Source: Verrucomicrobiota bacterium (GTDB taxonomy: Bacteria > Verrucomicrobiota > Verrucomicrobiia > Chthoniobacterales > JAFAMB01). Taken from it: a stretch of 44,185 nt of DNA. The notes under the pieces are model-generated. The model saw only the letters and a program-made list of their open reading frames with translations, was not told the origin of the DNA and made no database searches. The position numbers were made by a program, and so were the translations under genes. The first letter of the stretch is position 1; every line of letters starts with the position of its first letter. Location: NCBI GenBank assembly GCA_019247695.1, contig JAFBAP010000162.1, positions 1 through 44,185 on the forward strand, written 5' to 3'. This document shows positions 14 through 44,185 of the stretch, piece after piece.

Positions 14-410
14 GTCACACGGCGGGCACAGCGGGGGTGGCGGGCACAACGACAGAGTTCACACGGCGAACACGGCGAACCACGGCGAACACGGCGGGAA
101 GAGGAAAGGGAAAGAGTTCGGAGTTCGGAGTTCGGAGCGGCATCATTGGGGGCGAGTTGCCGGTGTCAAGCTCCTGTTCCGTGGATCCTTTTCTGCGTTC
201 TCTGCGTGTTCGGCGGATGATTCTGTCTTTCCGCGGTGTGAACGTGCCCCTCGGGGGAGATCGGACCTGGCTCTACGACCCCTCCGAACTCCGAACTCCG
301 AACTCCGAACTTCTTCCCCCTCTTCCCGCCGTGTTCGCCGTGGCTCGCCGTGTTCGCCGTGTGAACTCTGTCGTTGTGCCCGCGTTTAGCCGCCGTGGCC
401 GCCGTGTGAC
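14..410. repeat. Composite mosaic repeat with long inverted arms
   Basis: The left arm (14-137) and right arm (282-410) are imperfect reverse complements of about 125 bases. Each arm is built from short-period units: CACGGCGAA/CACGGCGGG-type units, then GTTCGGA heptamers. The core between them carries the TTCTGCGT/TCTGCGTG unit and GCGGATGATT. The same modules in the same order recur at 11356-11604, 27836-27962, 40715-41098 and 43994-44185. Open frames across this block are read-throughs of the repeat and are not called as genes. A further TTGTGGCATT-type unit at about 431-470 abuts queE. Confidence 0.85.
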
Positions 411-471
411 GGGCGCCCATCGCTAATCCTTGTGGCATGCTTTCACTTGTGGCATTTGTGGCATTCCTTCT

Positions 472-10585: not shown

Positions 10586-11353
10586 GTGAGCGGCTGGGAT
10601 CCGGACCTGTACCTTCGCTTCGAGGCTTACCGCACCCGCGCGGCCGCCGATCTTTTAAGCCGGGTTGAACTTGAGGAACCCCGCTTCGTCGTGGATCTGG
10701 GTTGCGGCCCCGGCAACAGCACGGCCCTGCTCGCAAAACGCTGGCCGTCGGCCGCCATCACGGGCGTCGACAACTCGGCTGCGATGCTCGGGCGCGCCCG
10801 TGCGGCCTATCCGGGGATTAACTGGATCCAGGCCGACCTCGCCGGCTGGCGCCCGCCGGACCGTCAGGATTTCATTTTCGCAAATGCCTCCCTTCAATGG
10901 GTGCCGGATCACCGTCCGCTCCTGCAGGGCTTCTGTAACTCGCTGCGTACCGGCGGCGTCCTCGCTTTCCAGGTGCCTTCCATCCACCACCAACCGGCGG
11001 CGGAAGTCTATCACCGGTTGGCCGATACCCCGCCGTGGCGTGCCTTCCGTGTCCCCGATGAACGGCTGACCGTCGAGACCCCCTCCTTCTACCACGACGT
11101 TCTGGCATCCTGGTGCCGTCACGTCGAGATCTGGGAAACGGTCTACCACCACCTGCTCGAGAACCATGAGCAGATGGTGCTCTGGTACCGGAGTACCGGC
11201 CTGCGCCCCTTCCTGGAGAACCTGCCGGATGAAGCCGCGCGCTCAGCTTTTATCGGCGAACTGGTCAACCGTTACCGTGCACGTTTTCCCGCGCTGGCCG
11301 ACGGGCAAGTCCTGTTTCCCTTTCACCGCCTCTTTGTGCTCGCCACCCGGTAA
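10586..11353 (+). CDS. tam: Trans-aconitate 2-methyltransferase-like SAM methyltransferase
   Basis: About 255 aa, close to the E. coli Tam length. GTG 10586 gives an N-terminus (SGWDPDLYLRFEAYRTRAA) that aligns in style with Tam; a GTG at 10547 would overlap gspD. SAM-binding motif I is VDLGCGPGNST; FIFANASLQWVPDH is a Tam-typical motif IV region, and GLRPFLENL and the C-terminal FPFHRLFVLATR also fit. Known family reaction: methyl esterification of trans-aconitate, which relieves inhibition of aconitase. Downstream of the secretion operon but functionally unrelated to it. The stop is immediately followed by a mosaic repeat. Confidence 0.88.
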   Translation: MSGWDPDLYLRFEAYRTRAAADLLSRVELEEPRFVVDLGCGPGNSTALLAKRWPSAAITGVDNSAAMLGRARAAYPGINWIQADLAGWRPPDRQDFIFANASLQWVPDHRPLLQGFCNSLRTGGVLAFQVPSIHHQPAAEVYHRLADTPPWRAFRVPDERLTVETPSFYHDVLASWCRHVEIWETVYHHLLENHEQMVLWYRSTGLRPFLENLPDEAARSAFIGELVNRYRARFPALADGQVLFPFHRLFVLATR

Positions 11354-11355
11354 CG

Positions 11356-11604
11356 GGTTCGGAGTTCGGAGTTCGGAGTTCGGAGCGGCATCCTGGGGCG
11401 TGGATGCGAACGTCAATCTTCGAGTTGCCCAGGTCTTCTTAATCTGTGTCAATCTGTGTAATCTGTGGATGTTTTCTCTTTTCTGCGTCCGTCTGCGTGT
11501 TCTGCGGATGATTTAATCTTTCCTCCGTGGTCGCCGTGGCCCGCCGTGTTCGCCGTGTGAACTCTTACGTGGTGCCCGCCACACCCGCTGTGCCCGCCGT
11601 GTGA
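11356..11604. repeat. Composite mosaic repeat, most complete single copy
   Basis: Modules in order: four GTTCGGA-type heptamers; a linker of about 60 bases beginning CGGCATCCTGG; ATCTGTGT tandem units ending TGTGGATG; TTCTGCGT units ending GCGGATGATT; then CGCCGTGTTCGCCGTG-type units and a final CCGCCGTGTGA. The copy at 43994-44185 has the same order, including a recognisably related linker. It begins directly after the tam stop codon. No credible gene lies in it. The following 120 bases, up to the small lipoprotein, show nothing recognisable. Confidence 0.85.
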
Positions 11605-14899: not shown

Positions 14900-14914
14900 G
14901 GCCGCAATAAGAAG

Positions 14915-15282
14915 AATGCCGCGAATGCCACAAGCGGAAAAATGCCACGGCAGAAAATGCCACAAATGCCACAAGTGAAAAAACGCCACAAATGAAGAAG
15001 CGGCGGGTAACGCGTAACGGGTAACGAATAGGGAGTGGCGGGTGTATCTTGGGGAAGCGCCGCCCATGTCAAGTCTCTCGTTTCTCTTCCCGTGTGCGAC
15101 GCTAATGCGTGTCAATCTTGATTACCCATAGGATCTGTGGACCTCTTCTCTGCGTATTCTGCAGACATTTTCGCTTTCCCGCCACCCGCCACCCGCCACC
15201 CGCTACCCGTTACGCGACACCCGACACTCTCTTCCATTTGTGGCATTTTCCGCCGCGGCATTCCTTCACCGGAACAGCCTTT
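14915..15282. repeat. Composite mosaic repeat between two transglutaminase genes
   Basis: Left arm: several AATGCCACAAATG-type units (14915-14995) followed by GGGTAACGCGTAACGGG-type units (15003-15028). Right arm in reverse order and complement: CCCGCCACCCGC and CCCGTTACGCG units (15178-15230), then TTTGTGGCATT units (15235-15275). The core (about 15108-15170) holds a degenerate ATCTGTGG and TCTGCGTATTCTGC module. The whole is an imperfect palindrome of about 365 bases that fills the gap between two genes otherwise expected to be co-transcribed. The right edge reaches the last codons of the upstream transglutaminase gene. Confidence 0.8.
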
Positions 15283-26908: not shown

Positions 26909-27835
26909 ATGCCCGTAAAAGGCAAGGAATCCAACCCCATGCGGCGGCTATTCTTACTCTCGGCGGTGACGGTTTTGTGTGGCGTAGTTGAAGCGTCTGG
27001 CCAGACTCAATACGAGAGCAGCACCGATTTCGCGAAGTACGCCATGAAATTGCGGGAGAATGCCCTCTTGAAGATCGAGCCGAAGGTCATCATGTCTCCC
27101 ACCAAAACCGTGTTCAACGGGTCCGGCCCGCGCTACCTCACCGGCCCTTCCCTCATGGGCCGCGGCGTCCTGAGCCTAAGTCCCGGCCGGTACCCGTGGA
27201 AAACCGGTATCGTCACAACCATTTTCTGGATCGGCGAACACCCGACCGTCAATAACCCCGTTCCGAACGACAAGAGCTCCTGGGACAAATTCTGGACCGC
27301 AAACTACGGCGGCTACGACAATCCGGAACCATCGGCCCGGCGCAATTACGTTCCGGTCAGCTTTGTGCCTCGTCAGAACCCATTCTACGTTGCACTGCCG
27401 TACAATGATATTGAGGGCAGCCACACCAAGCCGGAAGCTGCATCCGTCATTCCCTGGTTTAAGGAAGCATTCGTCAGGGATGGCCAGACGACGCTTAAAG
27501 GTCGCTGGGTGGCCATCCGGCACGGAAGCCGGGTCTGTTACGCGCAATGGGAGGATTGCGGGCCGTTCCGGACGGATCACTGGCAGTACGTGTTTGGAAA
27601 TGAGCGCCCGCGTCCGAACCTCAACCAAGGCGCCGGCCTGGATGTATCACCAGCCATTCGCGATTACCTGGGATTGGGCAACAAGGACATTTGCGACTGG
27701 AAGTTCGTCGAATTCCGCGAGGTTCCAGCGGCGGGTCCATGGGCGCTTTACGGGGACAACAACACGTTTGTGATCCTTCGACATCAAAGTGTCGACCGGT
27801 TCGCCCGCCAAACCGCGTTGCGCGGTGATGAGTAG
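26909..27835 (+). CDS. Secreted protein with putative double-psi beta-barrel
   Basis: 308 aa. AAGGGAG six bases before ATG 26909 supports this start; a second Met at 26939 begins the signal peptide itself (MRRLFLLSAVTVLCGVVEASG), so the N-terminal ten residues may not be needed. In the C-terminal half the pattern GRWVAIRHGSRVCYAQWEDCGPF ... GLDVSPAIRDYLGL resembles the RlpA/expansin double-psi beta-barrel (Asp-Gly-Pro-Phe then LDxS-A--LG). That fold is found in cell-wall-acting proteins. Two cysteines (VCYAQWEDC) could pair. The N-terminal half is not recognised. An envelope or wall-binding role is inferred from the fold resemblance alone. Confidence 0.68.
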   Translation: MPVKGKESNPMRRLFLLSAVTVLCGVVEASGQTQYESSTDFAKYAMKLRENALLKIEPKVIMSPTKTVFNGSGPRYLTGPSLMGRGVLSLSPGRYPWKTGIVTTIFWIGEHPTVNNPVPNDKSSWDKFWTANYGGYDNPEPSARRNYVPVSFVPRQNPFYVALPYNDIEGSHTKPEAASVIPWFKEAFVRDGQTTLKGRWVAIRHGSRVCYAQWEDCGPFRTDHWQYVFGNERPRPNLNQGAGLDVSPAIRDYLGLGNKDICDWKFVEFREVPAAGPWALYGDNNTFVILRHQSVDRFARQTALRGDE

Positions 27836-27962
27836 GCGGGCACAGCGGGTGCGTCCGCCGTGTGCCCTTAATCTGTGTCAATCTGTGTAATCTGTGGATG
27901 CTTTCCCCTTTTCTGCGTTTTTCTGCGTGTTCTGCGGATGATTTAATTTCTCGGCCGTGACC
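27836..27962. repeat. Composite mosaic repeat, short copy
   Basis: GGCGGGCACAGCGGGTG unit, then the ATCTGTGT tandem ending TGTGGATG, then TTCTGCGT units ending GCGGATGATT. Same order as at 11356-11604 but without the GTTCGGA heptamers and linker. It starts immediately after the preceding stop codon. Confidence 0.8.
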
Positions 27963-28426: not shown

Positions 28427-28444
28427 AGACCGTATAAACGGTCT
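28427..28444. other. Perfect 7-bp stem beside the MITE-like element
   Basis: AGACCGT (28427-28433), ATAA loop, ACGGTCT (28438-28444). It lies 20 bases after a stop codon and touches the left end of the inverted-repeat element. No U-tract, so a weak terminator at best; it could be an insertion-site palindrome. Confidence 0.3.
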
Positions 28445-28718
28445 AGGCCCAACGGGCCGGGAGAACATAGCCCAGGGTTTACCCTGGGAAGGCATTCTCC
28501 CCCCGACCTAGCCCTGAAAGGGCGGCAGAACCCTCGAGCGACGCCTTCTGCCACCCCTTCAGCAAATCCAACCCGGCGGGGCGGGCGTTTGTTAGGGAGG
28601 GTGTACAGGCCTGACGCCTTAGGAGGGCTCGATCGTGATTTGACGGTTACCCAGGGGGTAAAGCCCTGGGCTATGTTCTTCCGGCCCGTTGGGCCTAAAA
28701 ACCGGCCCGTTGGGCCTA
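28443..28718. mobile_element. MITE-like element with 46-48 bp terminal inverted repeats
   Basis: The left terminus (28443-28488) and right terminus (28650-28697) are near-perfect reverse complements, both beginning TAGGCCCAACGGGCCGG and continuing AACATAGCCCAGGG. About 160 bases lie between them, including CCCTGAAAGGGCGGCAGA. A second copy of the last 17 bases follows at 28702-28718. No open reading frame for a transposase. Structure fits a non-autonomous element; target-site duplication was not evident. Confidence 0.65.
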
Positions 28719-28855
28719 AAGCGGATTCAACCAGCTAGGGAGCATCCTCCGGCGCCGGCACCCCCAGGCCCGTTTGGTTCAATGGGAGGGCGGCGGCCCG
28801 CGCTCAGATTCGTCGTACCGGCTGGGGAGAATGGATGAGTGTGGATGACGGGCTT

Positions 28856-35241: not shown

Positions 35242-36456
35242 TTGAAACTTGAATCGCTTCAGTCACGACATTTTTCCCGTATCCTCCTGATTAAACCGTC
35301 GGCGCTCGGCGACGTGGTCCATACCGTCCCGCTGCTGCCGAAATTGCGGACCCGTTACCCGGACGCACGGATTGACTGGTTCATCACGCCGGAAAACGCT
35401 GAGCTGGTGCGGCATCACCCGGCGCTCTCGGGCGTGGTCCTTTTCGATCGGAAAAAGCTCGCGCGTTTCGGCCGGGGCTGGGACGCGACCCTGGAGTCGT
35501 TCCGGCTGCTTGCCGGGTTGCGCCGTGCCCGCTACGAGCTGGTCATCGATCTTCACGGGCAGATGCGCTCGGCCCTTTTCACCCTTGCCACCGGCGCACC
35601 CGTGCGCATCGGGTTCGACCGGCCGGTCAGCCGGGAGCCCACCGAGTCGGAGCATCACGAGCTTCGTAACGTCCCCCAGCGGGGATGGGCCGGGGCGCGA
35701 GAGGGGTCGTGGGTGGCGTACTCGCATCGCATCCCGATCGAGACGCTCGACGTTCACGCCATCGAACGCTACCTGTGGCTCGGGCCGATGCTCGGCCTGG
35801 ATGACGCGCCGCCGGACGAGCGCATTTATCTGTCCCCGGCAGCTGAGGCGGACGCGGAGCGTTTGCTTGGCGGTTTGGTCCGGCAACGCTTTGCCGCCCT
35901 GGCGCCGGGTACGATGTGGGAAACGAAGCATTGGCTGCCGGAACGCTTCGCGGAGGTCGGCCAGTGGTTTGAAGGGCAGGGCGTCGCGGTAGTCGTGCTA
36001 GGAACCAACCAGGACCGCGAGCGGGCGAAGGTTATCGTCGAGCGTTGCCCCGGCGCAGTCGACCTCTGCGGGCGGACGACCCCGGGCCAGCTTGCAGCCA
36101 TCGTGAAGCGAGCCGCCGCCTGCGTGACGAACGACTCCGGCGCCATGCACCTGGCCGTGGCACTCGAAACGCCGGTCGTCGGTGTTTTCGGCCCGACCAA
36201 TCCCGTCCACATCGGTCCTTACGGCCAACCGGAAGCGGTGGTGCGCGCCGGCCTGCCGTGCTCACCGTGCAATTTCCGCAACCTGTCGCAGTGCCCGTTT
36301 GGTCACGCGTGCATGCACCAAGTCAGCGGGGCCATGGTCATCGAGCGACTCGAGTCGGCGCTACGGGAGAAAATGCCACCGGGTGTCGAGTGCCGGGCGT
36401 CGAGCGTCGCGTGCCGGTCACACGGCGGCCACAGCGATCGGGCGGGCACGACGTAA
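35242..36456 (+). CDS. Glycosyltransferase family 9 (ADP-heptose:LPS heptosyltransferase-like)
   Basis: About 404 aa. Start uncertain: TTG 35242 leads to ILLIKPSALGDVVHTVPLL at the usual distance, while the frame is open from TTG 35182. GT-B fold with N-terminal signature PSALGDVVHTVP, VIDLHGQMRSAL, then LAPGTMWETKHWLPERFAEV and the nucleotide-binding VTNDSGAMHLAVAL and GVFGPTNPVHIGPYG. Family role: adding heptose to lipid A-core in the inner-membrane cytoplasmic face. The last 25 or so residues (from VECRASS to the stop) are encoded by mosaic repeat sequence, so the natural C-terminus probably once ended near ESALREKM. Confidence 0.88.
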   Translation: MKLESLQSRHFSRILLIKPSALGDVVHTVPLLPKLRTRYPDARIDWFITPENAELVRHHPALSGVVLFDRKKLARFGRGWDATLESFRLLAGLRRARYELVIDLHGQMRSALFTLATGAPVRIGFDRPVSREPTESEHHELRNVPQRGWAGAREGSWVAYSHRIPIETLDVHAIERYLWLGPMLGLDDAPPDERIYLSPAAEADAERLLGGLVRQRFAALAPGTMWETKHWLPERFAEVGQWFEGQGVAVVVLGTNQDRERAKVIVERCPGAVDLCGRTTPGQLAAIVKRAAACVTNDSGAMHLAVALETPVVGVFGPTNPVHIGPYGQPEAVVRAGLPCSPCNFRNLSQCPFGHACMHQVSGAMVIERLESALREKMPPGVECRASSVACRSHGGHSDRAGTT

Positions 36457-36648
36457 GAGTTCACACGGCGACCACGGCGGGCCACGGCGACCACGGCGGG
36501 AAGAAGGGGGGAAAGCGTTCGGAGTTCGGGGTTCGGCGTTCGGGGCGGAAGAGAATGCCACAAATGCCACAAGCGGAAAAATGCCACAAATGAAGAGGCG
36601 CCGGGCGGCATGGCTTCCCGCCGTGGTCGCCATGCCCGCCGCACAGCC
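36384..36648. repeat. Composite mosaic repeat overlapping the GT9 3' end
   Basis: GTGTCGAGTGCCGGGCGTCG-type units, then CACGGCGACCACGGCGGG units, GTTCGGAGTTCGGGG heptamers and AATGCCACAAATGCCAC units. The GT9 stop codon (TAA in CGACGTAAGAG) falls inside it. The last 50 bases carry an inverted CCGCCGTGGTCGCC unit. Confidence 0.8.
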
Positions 36649-36989
36649 TAGTGCTTCCAAAAGGTCATCAGGATGTTGATAAGAATGCCGATGAGAGTGG
36701 CGAAAAAGAACCACATCATTTGGAATTTAAAGGCATGGAGCTCTTTATGTATTTCCGTCCGAAACCCGGCGAGCTCTTGATGTATTTCCGCCCGAAACCC
36801 GGCGATCTCTTTCTGGAATTCTCCCCGAAGCTCCGCGAACATCCGATCGAGCCGGTCAATGCTCGGTCGTTCCTCGATTGCCGTGCTCATTACTTTGACG
36901 ATATGCTTGGCGTGCTCAGATTCAATACCTGCACCCTCGAGCTCCTCGACTGCGCGTTGAGTGTCCACTCTCTGCTTCCTTTCTATCAT
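36648..36989 (-). CDS. DUF1640-like coiled-coil protein with C-terminal membrane anchor
   Basis: About 113 aa from ATG 36989; a GTG at 36968 preceded by AAAGGAAG is an equally good start. N-terminal RAVEELEGAGIESEHAKHIVKVM resembles the head of DUF1640/CCDC90-type proteins. The middle is a coiled coil made of 11-residue repeats (EIAGFRAEIHQ, ELAGFRTEIHK), and the C-terminus is one membrane helix (MWFFFATLIGILINILMTF). Bacterial members are of unknown role. The repeats correspond to 33-base tandem units in the DNA, so repeat number may vary between strains. Confidence 0.75.
   Translation of the reverse strand: MIERKQRVDTQRAVEELEGAGIESEHAKHIVKVMSTAIEERPSIDRLDRMFAELRGEFQKEIAGFRAEIHQELAGFRTEIHKELHAFKFQMMWFFFATLIGILINILMTFWKH
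36741..36839. repeat. 33-bp tandem repeat inside the DUF1640-like gene
   Basis: Units 36741-36773 and 36774-36806 differ at a few positions only; a third, more diverged unit is at 36807-36839. In frame, each encodes 11 residues, one hendecad of the coiled coil. Confidence 0.8.
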
Positions 36990-37045
36990 CCTCGCTCGGA
37001 CGCGAGCCCCGCTTGGCGGGCGGCGTGAAGGCAGCGCGACTTTTC

Positions 37046-38572
37046 CTACCACAACTGCCGGTCAAGGGTGCGGTACTGGACCGCTTCGGCCAGGTGGTCA
37101 GGTCCGATCCGGTCGGCGCCGGCCAGGTCGGCGATGGTGCGCGCCACTTTGAGGATGCGGTCGTAGGCGCGCGCGCTCAGGTTGAGCGCGCTCACCGCCC
37201 GGCGCAGCAGTTCGGTGGCGTCGGGTTCCAGGGCGCAATGTTTTCGCAACAGTCGCGGGCCCATGCGGGCATTGGCTGAAACCTGGGGTTCGCCGGCAAA
37301 GCGTTGTTGCTGGCGCAACCGGGCGCGGGTAACCCGTTCGCGGATGTCCGAGGAGCCTTCGCCATCCTCGACGGTGGTCAGGTCTTTGAGTTCCATGGCC
37401 GGTACGTCGACGTGCAGGTCGATACGGTCCAGCAGCGGCCCGGAAAGCCGGCTCCGGTATTTAAGCACCTGGGCCGGGTTGCACCGGCACTCGCGCCGGG
37501 TATCGCCGTAATGGCCGCAAGGGCAGGGATTCATGGCCGCCACCAGCATGAACTCCGCCGGGAAAGTCATGGTGCCGGCTGCGCGCGAAATGGTGACCCG
37601 GCCATCCTCAAGGGGTTGGCGCAACACCTCGAGGGTCGAACGGCGAAATTCGGGCAGTTCATCCAAAAAGAGCACGCCGTGGTGCGCCAGGCTGACTTCT
37701 CCGGGCGAGGGGTGGGCGGTGCCGCCCAGCAATCCGGCGTCGGATATGGTGTGATGGGGGCTACGGAAAGGCCGTTCCCAGACGAAGGGGCGTTTGCGGT
37801 CCAACAATCCGCAGACGCTGTGAATCCGGGTTGTCTCGATGGCCTCGGCCAGGGTGAGCGGCGGGAGGATTGAGGGAATGCGCTTGGCGATCATCGATTT
37901 GCCCGAACCCGGAGGGCCGATCATCAAAAGGTTGTGTTCGCCGGCCGCCGCCACTTCGATGGCCCGTTTGACGTGGGGTTGGCCTTTCACTTCGCAAAAA
38001 TCGACTTCGCACCGGGACGCCGGGCGCTCACGCATGGCGACGGCGGGGGTGAGTTCCCGCTCGGCCCGCAGGTAGAGTACCACCTCGGTGAGCGTGGCGG
38101 CGCCAATGACGTCAATGCCGTCGACCATGGCTGCTTCGTCCGCGTTTTGAACCGGCAACACCAGAGTGCGCCGGCCGCGCCGGCGCGCCTCGAGGGCGAT
38201 GGCCAGTGCGCCTTTGACGGGGCGGAGTTGCCCTGAGAGGGCCAGTTCACCGGCAAACAAGAACGATCCCAGGTCAGGCAACCGGCTCTTCTCGTTGAGA
38301 ACCAGCAGGCCAAGGGCGATCGGCAGGTCGAAGCTGGGTCCTTCTTTGCGCAGGTCCGCCGGCGCCAGATTGATCGTGATGCGGCCTTCGGGCCCGCGCA
38401 AGCCGCTGTTGTGAATGGCGCTGAGCACACGATCCCTGCTTTCTTTAACCGCCGTGTCCGGCAGGCCGACCACGGCGATCCTGAAATCGTTGCCCCAACT
38501 GGCGTGGACCTCGGTTTCGACCTCGAAAGCATCGACGCCCACCACGGCCGCGGAATAAACTTTGGAAGGCAT
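37046..38572 (-). CDS. comM: YifB/ComM family Mg chelatase-like AAA+ ATPase
   Basis: About 508 aa, standard length. ATG 38572 gives [19 protein letters not shown], the usual start. N-terminal Lon-protease-like ChlI domain (to about 170). AAA+ domain with Walker [14 protein letters not shown], Walker [11 protein letters not shown] and the [11 protein letters not shown] zinc-finger-like insertion, then the Mg-chelatase C-terminal helix domain ([17 protein letters not shown]). In Gram-negative bacteria ComM is a hexameric helicase promoting branch migration of incoming DNA during natural transformation; whether this bacterium is competent is unknown. Confidence 0.95.
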
Positions 38573-40333: not shown

Positions 40334-40714
40334 CGCGGTCCCATTGATGGGATGGAGGATTGCCGAGCGGGCGCAGAGAGCTCAGCGGCAACGCCGCCGG
40401 CCGGAATCAACGGGCCGGGATTCGTATTCTAACCTGCTCATGCTCAACAACTTATACAGCTCACCCGTTTGGGTGAGAATGACTTGCGAGCCTCGCCGTG
40501 GATTTGGCATGGGCCAAGCAATAACCGCAGCCCATCAAGCCTTCGGTTATGAAATCCATTGCGTTCTCCAAGTGCAGCCCGCGATTCCTCGCTTTCTCGG
40601 TCGAGGCGGCCTCGAGCCTGTCCATGATCCATCACTGGCAGCGAAGCGCGGCCATCGTTCATTTAGCCTTGTCCCGAACTGTGGCAGGTGCCGGCTGCTG
40701 CAGGGAGTTCGGTC
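40334..40714. other. Intergenic stretch, no gene supported
   Basis: 381 bases after the immunity-like gene. Short frames on both strands run through it into the neighbouring repeat, but none has family resemblance or a ribosome binding site. May hold decayed coding sequence; nothing specific recognised. Confidence 0.4.
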
Positions 40715-41098
40715 ACACGGCGGGCACGGTGGAAGCGAATCACACCGCGCCACGGCGGAACACGGCGACCACGGCGGAAAGATAGAACCGTCCGCAGAAG
40801 GACGCAGAAGGACGCAGAAAGGAGGAAAGCATCCACAGATTACGCAGATTACACAGATTAAGGGCACACGGCGGGCACAACGTAAGAGTTCACACGGCGA
40901 CCACGGCGAACACGGCGGGAAGAAGGGGAAAGCCAGGCCGGCGCTTCTTCATTTGTGGCATTCTCTGCCGCTCCGAACCCCGAGCCCCGAACTCCGAACT
41001 CTTTCCCCCTCTTCCCGCCGTGTTCGCCGTGGCTCGCCGTGTTCGCCGTGTGAACTCTTACGTTGTGCCCGCCATACCCGCTGTGCCCGCCGTGTGAC
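40715..41098. repeat. Composite mosaic repeat with inverted arms upstream of the SNF2 gene
   Basis: The left part is a reverse-orientation copy: CACGGCGG units, then CGCAGAAGGACGCAGAA and CAGATTACGCAGATTAC units (40790-40860). Next comes GCGGGCACAACGTAAGAG with CACGGCGAACACGG units (about 40871-40932), a spacer containing TTTGTGGCATT and GAACTCC units, and the reverse complement of the arm (41001-41072). The whole ends with CCGCCGTGTGAC at 41098. Confidence 0.85.
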
Positions 41099-42989: not shown

Positions 42990-44033
42990 ATGAAGTTTTC
43001 AAAGATCCCCGCGCGCGCCGAGTACCTGATCGATTTCTTTGAAGAAGGCCTCTCGTCACTGGGTGCGATCTGCGAGCGTTCCTGGCACGATCGCCTGGAG
43101 GTCCTGGCGGAAGGTGAGACTGCACGGCTTTGGCGAAACGAAGGCGACTTCTTTTCGGGTGAACTGCATTTTTGCAACGGCGGTTTGCCGGAGACGGGGA
43201 ATCCGGAAACGGAGGTTTTTCCCGGCAGCCCACTAACTTTTAAGCTGGTCGAAGCGATTTGGACCCATAACGCGGTCCATTCCCGGGCCTGCCTCTCAAC
43301 GGGAGGGATCCTGAGGCCGCCGGCGCAGGACGTGGCGCAAAAGCTTTGGCAGGCGCAGTTCGGTCCCTGCGCAGCCTGGCGATTAACCACCCCGTTCCGG
43401 CCGGCCTGGAGTTTCTCGTTGGTCATTGCGCTGCGCTGCGAAATTCAGGCGATCGACCAGAGCTGGAGTTGTCATCGCCTGGCGTTTACTCTGCCCGGCG
43501 GCGAACGTGATGCCTCCCTGGAGTCAACGCTCGAGCAAATGAGCCCTACGGAAACCGCGCCTGAAGGGCCGGACTGGCCGGCGGAGGATGGGTTTACCGT
43601 ATCCGACTGGATCGGACGGGCGCTCGTCAACGAGCTGGCACCGGAGCTCTCCAAAATCAAGGAACGGCAGCAGAACTTTTTACGGCGGGAGCTGAGCCGC
43701 ATCGATACGTACTTCGACAACTATTCTCGTGAGCTGCATAGCCGCATGGCGCGCCAGCGCAAAGAGGACGCCATTAAACGTTATGCCGAGCGCCTCGAGG
43801 CTACACGCGTCGAACACAACCGGCGGCGAGCCGACCAGATCGAGCGTCACACGATCCATCTTCTGCCCCACGTTGACGCTGTGTTGACGGTGGCGGAACC
43901 TGCACTGGTCGCAACGGTCAGCTGCCGGGCCGGCCGCGCGGAACGAAGTACCCGGGCAACTTTTATCCCGCGAGCGCGCCGCTGGCATTTGGCAGAGAAT
44001 GCCACAAATGAAGAAGTGGCGGCTAACGGGTAA
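42990..44033 (+). CDS. Coiled-coil partner of the SNF2 helicase, unknown function
   Basis: 347 aa. N-terminal half (1-215) is a globular domain with several Trp (RSWHDRLEVLAEG, RPAWSFSLVIALRCE) that I cannot assign. Residues about 215-285 are a long charged coiled coil (LSKIKERQQNFLRRELSRIDTY, ERLEATRVEHNRRRADQIERH), followed by a short beta-prone segment HVDAVLTVAEPALVATVSCR. That tail resembles C-terminal parts found with RapA-like helicases, suggesting this protein supplies a module missing from the helicase. The last dozen or so residues (from ENATNEEVAANG) and the stop are encoded by mosaic repeat sequence, so the natural end probably lay earlier. Confidence 0.75.
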   Translation: MKFSKIPARAEYLIDFFEEGLSSLGAICERSWHDRLEVLAEGETARLWRNEGDFFSGELHFCNGGLPETGNPETEVFPGSPLTFKLVEAIWTHNAVHSRACLSTGGILRPPAQDVAQKLWQAQFGPCAAWRLTTPFRPAWSFSLVIALRCEIQAIDQSWSCHRLAFTLPGGERDASLESTLEQMSPTETAPEGPDWPAEDGFTVSDWIGRALVNELAPELSKIKERQQNFLRRELSRIDTYFDNYSRELHSRMARQRKEDAIKRYAERLEATRVEHNRRRADQIERHTIHLLPHVDAVLTVAEPALVATVSCRAGRAERSTRATFIPRARRWHLAENATNEEVAANG

Positions 44034-44185
44034 CGGGTAACGGGTTCGGAGTTCGGGGTTCGGAGTTCGGAGCGGCAGCATGGAGGTGGTTGCGAGTGTC
44101 AACCTTGGAGTTGCCGCCAGGTCCTCTTGATCTGTGTCAATCTGTGTAATCTGTGGATGGATCCTCTTTTCTGCGTTCTCTGCGT
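43994..44185. repeat. Composite mosaic repeat, cut by the window end
   Basis: AATGCCACAAATG unit, GGGTAACGGGTAACGGG units, four GTTCGGA/GTTCGGG heptamers, a linker of about 60 bases starting CGGCAGCATGG, the ATCTGTGT tandem ending TGTGGATGG, then TTCTGCGTTCTCTGCGT at the edge. Same order as 11356-11604. It begins inside the last codons of the preceding gene. Confidence 0.85.

Follow-up and report, generated by a model that had tools for sequence, protein, structure and literature searches.

Among described bacterial repeats, a close parallel to the elements reported here is the BOX element of streptococci, a modular intergenic repeat of the form boxA-boxB(n)-boxC (PMC3049150). Like BOX, the present repeats combine a set order of modules with unit numbers that differ from copy to copy. 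Terminal inverted repeats, as in miniature inverted-repeat transposable elements (MITEs), are present in complete copies and missing from incomplete ones. The identical repeats and unique spacers of constant length that define CRISPR were not found; the units, of 7-10 nt, stand head to tail without spacers, in line with a first-pass annotation that had set these blocks apart from CRISPR. With moderate confidence, we favor the view that they are a family of non-autonomous palindromic intergenic repeats, MITE/BOX-like, that are gained in tolerant spacers and quickly remodelled. With no obvious target duplication in the flanks read and no transposase with matching ends at the Y1 loci, the family is not classed here as a proven MITE.

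The window, a stretch of 44,185 nucleotides, is an entire contig (C162) of a genome of 5.19 Mb in 191 contigs. All seven blocks listed by the first-pass annotation were found close to where it had placed them, far beyond chance (Table 1).

Table 1. Blocks of the repeat family in the window, with their extents in the module scan
Feature	Position	Strand	Module-scan extent	Content
Element 1, complete palindrome	14..410		5-465	Left arm of A words (TTCACACGGCGAACACGGCGAACCACGGCG), B heptamers, linker, E, F, right arm of b and a words
Outer G word array	430..465			Reverse orientation (TTGTGGCATGCTTTCACTTGTGGCATTTGTGGCATT); right-hand closure of element 1
Second block	11349..11604	+	11350-11601	One C word, four B heptamers, linker (11385-11439), three D, E words, F, right arm of a words
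Third block	14910..15252		14924-15247	Left G and C words, diverged linker, single D and E, right inverted C/H-type heptamers and G words; inverted arms 14999-15044/15183-15228
Short copy	27836..27962	+	27856-27943	A-type edge, three D, three E words, F; directly behind stop of gene ending at 27835
Fifth block	36372..36640		36372-36625	G, H, A arm, B heptamers, G array, remnant right A arm
Composite nested element	40710..41098		40674-41094	A arm, e and d words (reversed core), second A arm, inverted G, b heptamers, right A arm; inverted arms detected
Seventh block	43994..44185	+	43998-44175	G, C, B words, linker, D, E; rest cut off by contig end

The arms of element 1 (40-104/319-383) are 98% complementary, and the whole element folds as a single long hairpin (single-stranded DNA minimum free energy of -178.5 kcal/mol; z, -20.6). 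In the block at 11356-11604, an incomplete copy, the left A arm is missing, and no hairpin was found when the block was folded (z, +1.6). Its C word, GTAACGG, supplies the TAA (11351-11353) that is the stop codon of a methyltransferase gene ending at 11353, and in the seventh block a TAA inside the same word (44031-44033) terminates the upstream open reading frame (ORF) at 42990-44033. Two further repeats lie in the window: a 33-bp coding tandem in three copies (36738-36836) inside a small reverse-strand ORF (36648-37052), which is absent at the orthologous place in the sister genome, and, at 28444-28720, another inverted repeat, REP-like and of a separate kind (TAGGCCCAACGGGCCGG...AGCCCAGGG), that comes with a 21-bp tandem.

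The family uses a vocabulary of about nine short DNA words arranged in mirror-image order. Three are 9-mers, D (ACACAGATT), E (ACGCAGAAG), and A (ACACGGCGA), spaced at 9-10(-9) nt, and three are heptamers, B (GTTCGGA), C (GTAACGG), and H (GGTGTCG), spaced at 7 nt. Arm words A, B, C, G, and H face inward from both ends around a linker-D-E-F core, which itself occurs in either orientation. Layering follows a preference, with G, C, and H outside and A and B inside, and the outer words are mirrored on the opposite side as reverse complements just as the A and B arms are. A complete copy begins with GTCACACGGCGGGCACAGCG...GGCGGGCACAACGTAAGAGTTCACACGGCGAACACGGCGAGCCACGGCGACCACGGCGGGAAGAGG...(GTTCGGA)n-GCGGCA linker, followed by ATCTGTGTCAATCTGTGTAATCTGTGGATG-TTCTGCG units-TTCTGCGGATGATT-(TCCGAAC)n and then the reverse complement of the left arm; two other core types, CAAAATTACCCAGCACC... 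and GGGGGAGATCGGACC..., substitute in some copies. The spacing is uneven and polar: longer runs of the D word show (9,10) spacing in 27 of 31 cases and E-word runs in 24 of 26, and (9,10,9) spacing was seen in A-word runs (58 runs). In other genomes the D words were spaced (9,10) 11 times and (9,9) 8 times.

The repeats are abundant throughout the genome. Exact D arrays (ATCTGTGTNATCTGTGG) number 147 in the 5.19 Mb, together with 252 A triplets and 1,037 overlapping B triplets, and the reversed pattern of each was found 0 times. A sample of 822 kb held 87 module clusters, compared with 3 when the sequence was read backward, and in a sample of 1.52 Mb there were 158 dense clusters (median, 230 bp; maximum, 746 bp) occupying ~3.2% of the DNA. 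Order statistics were taken from this 1.52-Mb sample, picked partly by D content; adjacent modules were counted as AB 91, DE 84, EF 67, CH 26, and GC 22, against 5 for ED and 0 for FE, and the excess over shuffles was strong (z, 27 for DE, 27 for EF, and 16 for AB). A mosaic family with a preferred module order that is common across the genome, as first proposed from the window, is thus borne out by genome-wide counts and by order against shuffles, and the genome-wide scan showed neither independently scattered modules nor restriction to a few copies. The order originally described as fixed is indeed strongly nonrandom, but it is palindromic and not a single linear series; that description is extended here by the inverted nesting of the modules, by a 9-10(-9) spacing common to several words, by the position of copies just after stop codons, and by content that turns over at the same spacers in a sister species.

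Placement relative to genes, which were called with our own codon-usage ORF caller, was measured in the same partly D-selected 1.52-Mb sample. Elements were present in 26% of convergent spacers versus ~10% of the others (p = 6e-7). Where an element edge faces a stop codon, the distance to it is no more than 25 bp in 77% of cases, compared with 39% under random placement in the same spacers, while edges facing a start codon showed no comparable closeness effect relative to random placement. Edge words point inward at both gene ends (94:21 at 3' ends and 67:11 at 5' ends), and the orientation of the core is random with respect to transcription (17:16); on these two grounds an orientation linked to genes was rejected.

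Comparison with a sister genome (G001), which is 85% identical and contains 14 D arrays, 15 A triplets, and 14 overlapping B triplets, shows that sites are shared more than their contents. In 60 orthologous spacers, 8 of 11 element sites were also filled in the sister genome versus 5 of 49 others (p = 6e-5). The sharing weakens (p = 0.02) when the comparison is confined to spacers of 180 bp or more, and part of it may therefore reflect permissive spacers. In most cases the shared sites contain different modules. At the C101 site the two genomes are near-identical in the flank up to the edge, where A arms in one face C heptamers in the other, and both retain D and E at the far end; at C26:7376 the D array alone is common to both; and at C109:72181 the outer G and inverted C/G words are common and the interior is replaced. 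For two blocks of the window, the spacer in the sister genome orthologous to 36372..36640 is occupied instead by a linker with C, D, E, and A words, and that orthologous to 40710..41098 by B, G, D, E, and A words. The comparison of orthologous spacers proposed at the outset yielded sites with and without elements, but no exact edges, the sister genome being too diverged: at 85% identity, neither a clean target-site duplication nor a precisely defined, high-identity insertion edge was recovered, and flanks of complete copies, read by eye, showed no obvious target-site duplication.

The blocks at 14-470 and 43994-44185 reach both ends of the contig. In many other contigs, too, a copy lies no more than a few hundred bases from one end, and the assembly is therefore probably interrupted by the repeats. 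Such repeats may account for part of the fragmentation of metagenome assemblies of this kind, whose contigs often stop in them. An assembly artefact as the source of the repeats themselves was rejected; it is opposed by the modules in orthologous spacers of an independent metagenome-assembled genome and in phage contigs.

The words extend well beyond this genome. Within the same family, D arrays are also found in two further genomes (G005 and G010); none were found in 27 genomes from other families of the order. B arrays were seen in several additional genomes of the family and also in a single genome from another family of the order. Across the phylum, D arrays are present in 26 of 289 genomes (control, 0). 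A D-then-E pattern of 23 fixed bases, for which ~0.2 chance matches were estimated, was found in 12 stretches from Verrucomicrobiota, Desulfobacteraceae, Cytophagales, Prevotellaceae, Anaerolineales, and Sedimentisphaerales, and this composite confirms the statement in the first-pass annotation that similar strings are common in some bacterial genomes. In other families and phyla, many D arrays form hairpins (CCACAGATnaCACAGATnnnCACAGAT ... inverse); among 77 D arrays outside this genome, a complementary partner was located inward of the array for 19 and outward of it for 2. As D-word hairpins occur in several other phyla, something probably spreads or copies the D word. DnaA boxes were considered and rejected as an identity for the words: some D hairpins elsewhere begin with TTATCCACA, but this genome has CATCCACA in its copies, and neither E nor A matches such a box.

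One D hairpin belongs to a phage, in the spacer that separates the portal gene from the following one. The same spacer is empty in three relatives (L303, L305, and L307) and filled with different palindromes in three others (L298, L301, and L321), among them a nested pair of CCGCCAAGA and CGCAGAG words. In different relatives (L313, L317, L319, and L320, upstream of the matched gene), palindromic repeats that are unrelated to one another, of the CGTCATTCCCGCG type, the CCCTCTCCC type, and D hairpins, concentrate in this spacer, which acts as a hot spot for them. Many D arrays (5 and 6 in two loci, L285/L291) were also seen on a 29.7-kb contig listed as viral (IMGVR_UViG_3300037264_001851), which is possibly a misclassified bacterial contig.

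In our reading, each unit is a hairpin, both arms of which are arrays of one short word. Units nest inside each other in a preferred layering, whereby spacers turn into mirror-image mosaics. In the mechanism that we propose, copies would be gained where insertion harms little, mostly right behind stop codons and between convergent genes, and new ones would arise by copying or insertion through an enzyme acting in trans. Remodelling would be fast, as arrays slip, copies exchange sequence, and further units insert, so that a site persists while its content changes. The copies themselves would be mainly selfish or neutral.

A selected role at the 3' ends of genes, with the RNA palindromes acting as bidirectional terminators or as barriers protecting mRNA 3' ends, would suit the position of copies directly behind stop codons, the preference for convergent spacers, and the very strong hairpin of element 1. 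However, tolerance predicts the placement equally well, as has been argued for BOX and RUP (PMC3049150), and the random orientation of the core, the many copies without a hairpin, the second block included, the fast turnover of content at the same site in sister species, and the lack of covariation in the core (0 of 37 pairs in 13 cores compared) make this role quite unlikely. The same 13 cores, with no compensatory change, bear on whether the linker-D-E-F core encodes a structured noncoding RNA. The linker is conserved among copies, but Rfam gave 0 matches at gathering score within the window and the core is present in both orientations; the proposal is extremely improbable and was discarded on the empty Rfam result and the absent covariation. 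Origin without any mobility, through arrays growing by slippage in place, mirror halves made by fold-back template switching, and words spread by recombination between copies, is an unlikely account. It would explain why unit numbers vary and why arm variants are common to different elements, as in two that lie ~8 kb apart on C15, and it agrees with the finding that the best match in the sample was the mate in the same element for 6 of 40 arms versus ~0.3 expected. (General co-evolution of arms within a copy was rejected, since this holds for a minority only.) Against it, words, order, and polar 9-10 spacing recur in unrelated phyla and in phages, and slippage yields an even period and not 9-10-9, the same uneven spacing in three different words being presumably hard to obtain by simple slippage.

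Mobilisation of the hairpins by a Y1 tyrosine transposase of the REP/RAYT or TIRYT type seems very improbable, even though Y1 enzymes act on hairpin ends (PMC3733652) and PF01797 genes are present, two in this genome (G000) and one in the sister genome. No transposase gene with matching ends was found when the Y1 (RAYT-type) loci were read: the Y1 gene of the sister genome (G001:C82) is flanked by inverted TAGCCCAGGGTTTACCCTGGGAA repeats of a different family, seen also in the window at 28444-28697, no word arrays were seen as inverted pairs flanking Y1 genes, and no GTAG/CGTC tag was noticed in the arms. With another REP family at the Y1 loci, and without the tagged 20- to 40-nt palindromes and linked RAYT that characterize REP/RAYT systems, such an origin was rejected. 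In G005 (C286), one Y1 match and a D hairpin are ~0.8 kb apart, which we take as coincidence.

Beyond the non-autonomous palindromic repeat that we favor for this genome, a broader and speculative possibility, which we consider doubtful, is a cross-phylum superfamily of hairpins with one spacing rule for the arms and swappable words, made by a single undescribed protein or copying machine reading or writing DNA in steps of 9-10 nt. The rule would be a 7-nt word, a 2-nt gap, a word, a 3-nt gap, and a word, and the interchangeable words would be CACAGAT, CGCAGAA, CACGGCG, and probably CACGAAA/G. Were this true, a widespread machine would be distributing these hairpins among bacteria and phages. 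Short repeats between genes are frequently set aside as low-complexity DNA. In the present family the grammar (word, polar spacing, inward orientation, and layering) lends itself to scoring and searching, and at least five phyla have one word in common; an old, loose observation thereby becomes testable as to whether there is one mechanism and which enzyme drives it.

We could not find this repeat family described in the open-access literature searched: exact D, E, B, and related-word strings returned no paper there, most subscription journals lying outside that literature. The heptameric intergenic repeats of Nostoc and Xanthomonas (PMC4692102) and the TAACTGA repeats of Beggiatoaceae (PMC4679880) are likewise short intergenic heptamer arrays, but those reports apparently describe one heptamer type, whereas three heptamer families and 9-mers in one mirrored order are found here. 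BrickBuilt of Porphyromonas gingivalis (PMC4596501) is also an inverted-repeat element containing a tandem array; it is described as a minisatellite within a MITE, whereas here the inverted arms are the arrays. REP, BIME, and REPIN sequences with RAYT (PMC3733652, PMC2817692, and PMC3116915) similarly are extragenic palindromes that form composite arrays, mostly in convergent or unidirectional spacers. As the first-pass annotation had held, the present elements are distinct from REP, being much longer and built of several unit types, with no GTAG/CGTC tag noticed and no linked RAYT. BOX (PMC3049150) shares with them a fixed module order, variable internal copy number, enrichment between convergent genes, a predicted stem-loop, and inferred mobility. 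Its modules are longer than the 7- to 9-nt words found here, and the present family differs from it further in the mirror-image nesting of several arm types, in a core that is used both ways, and in a word that crosses phyla.
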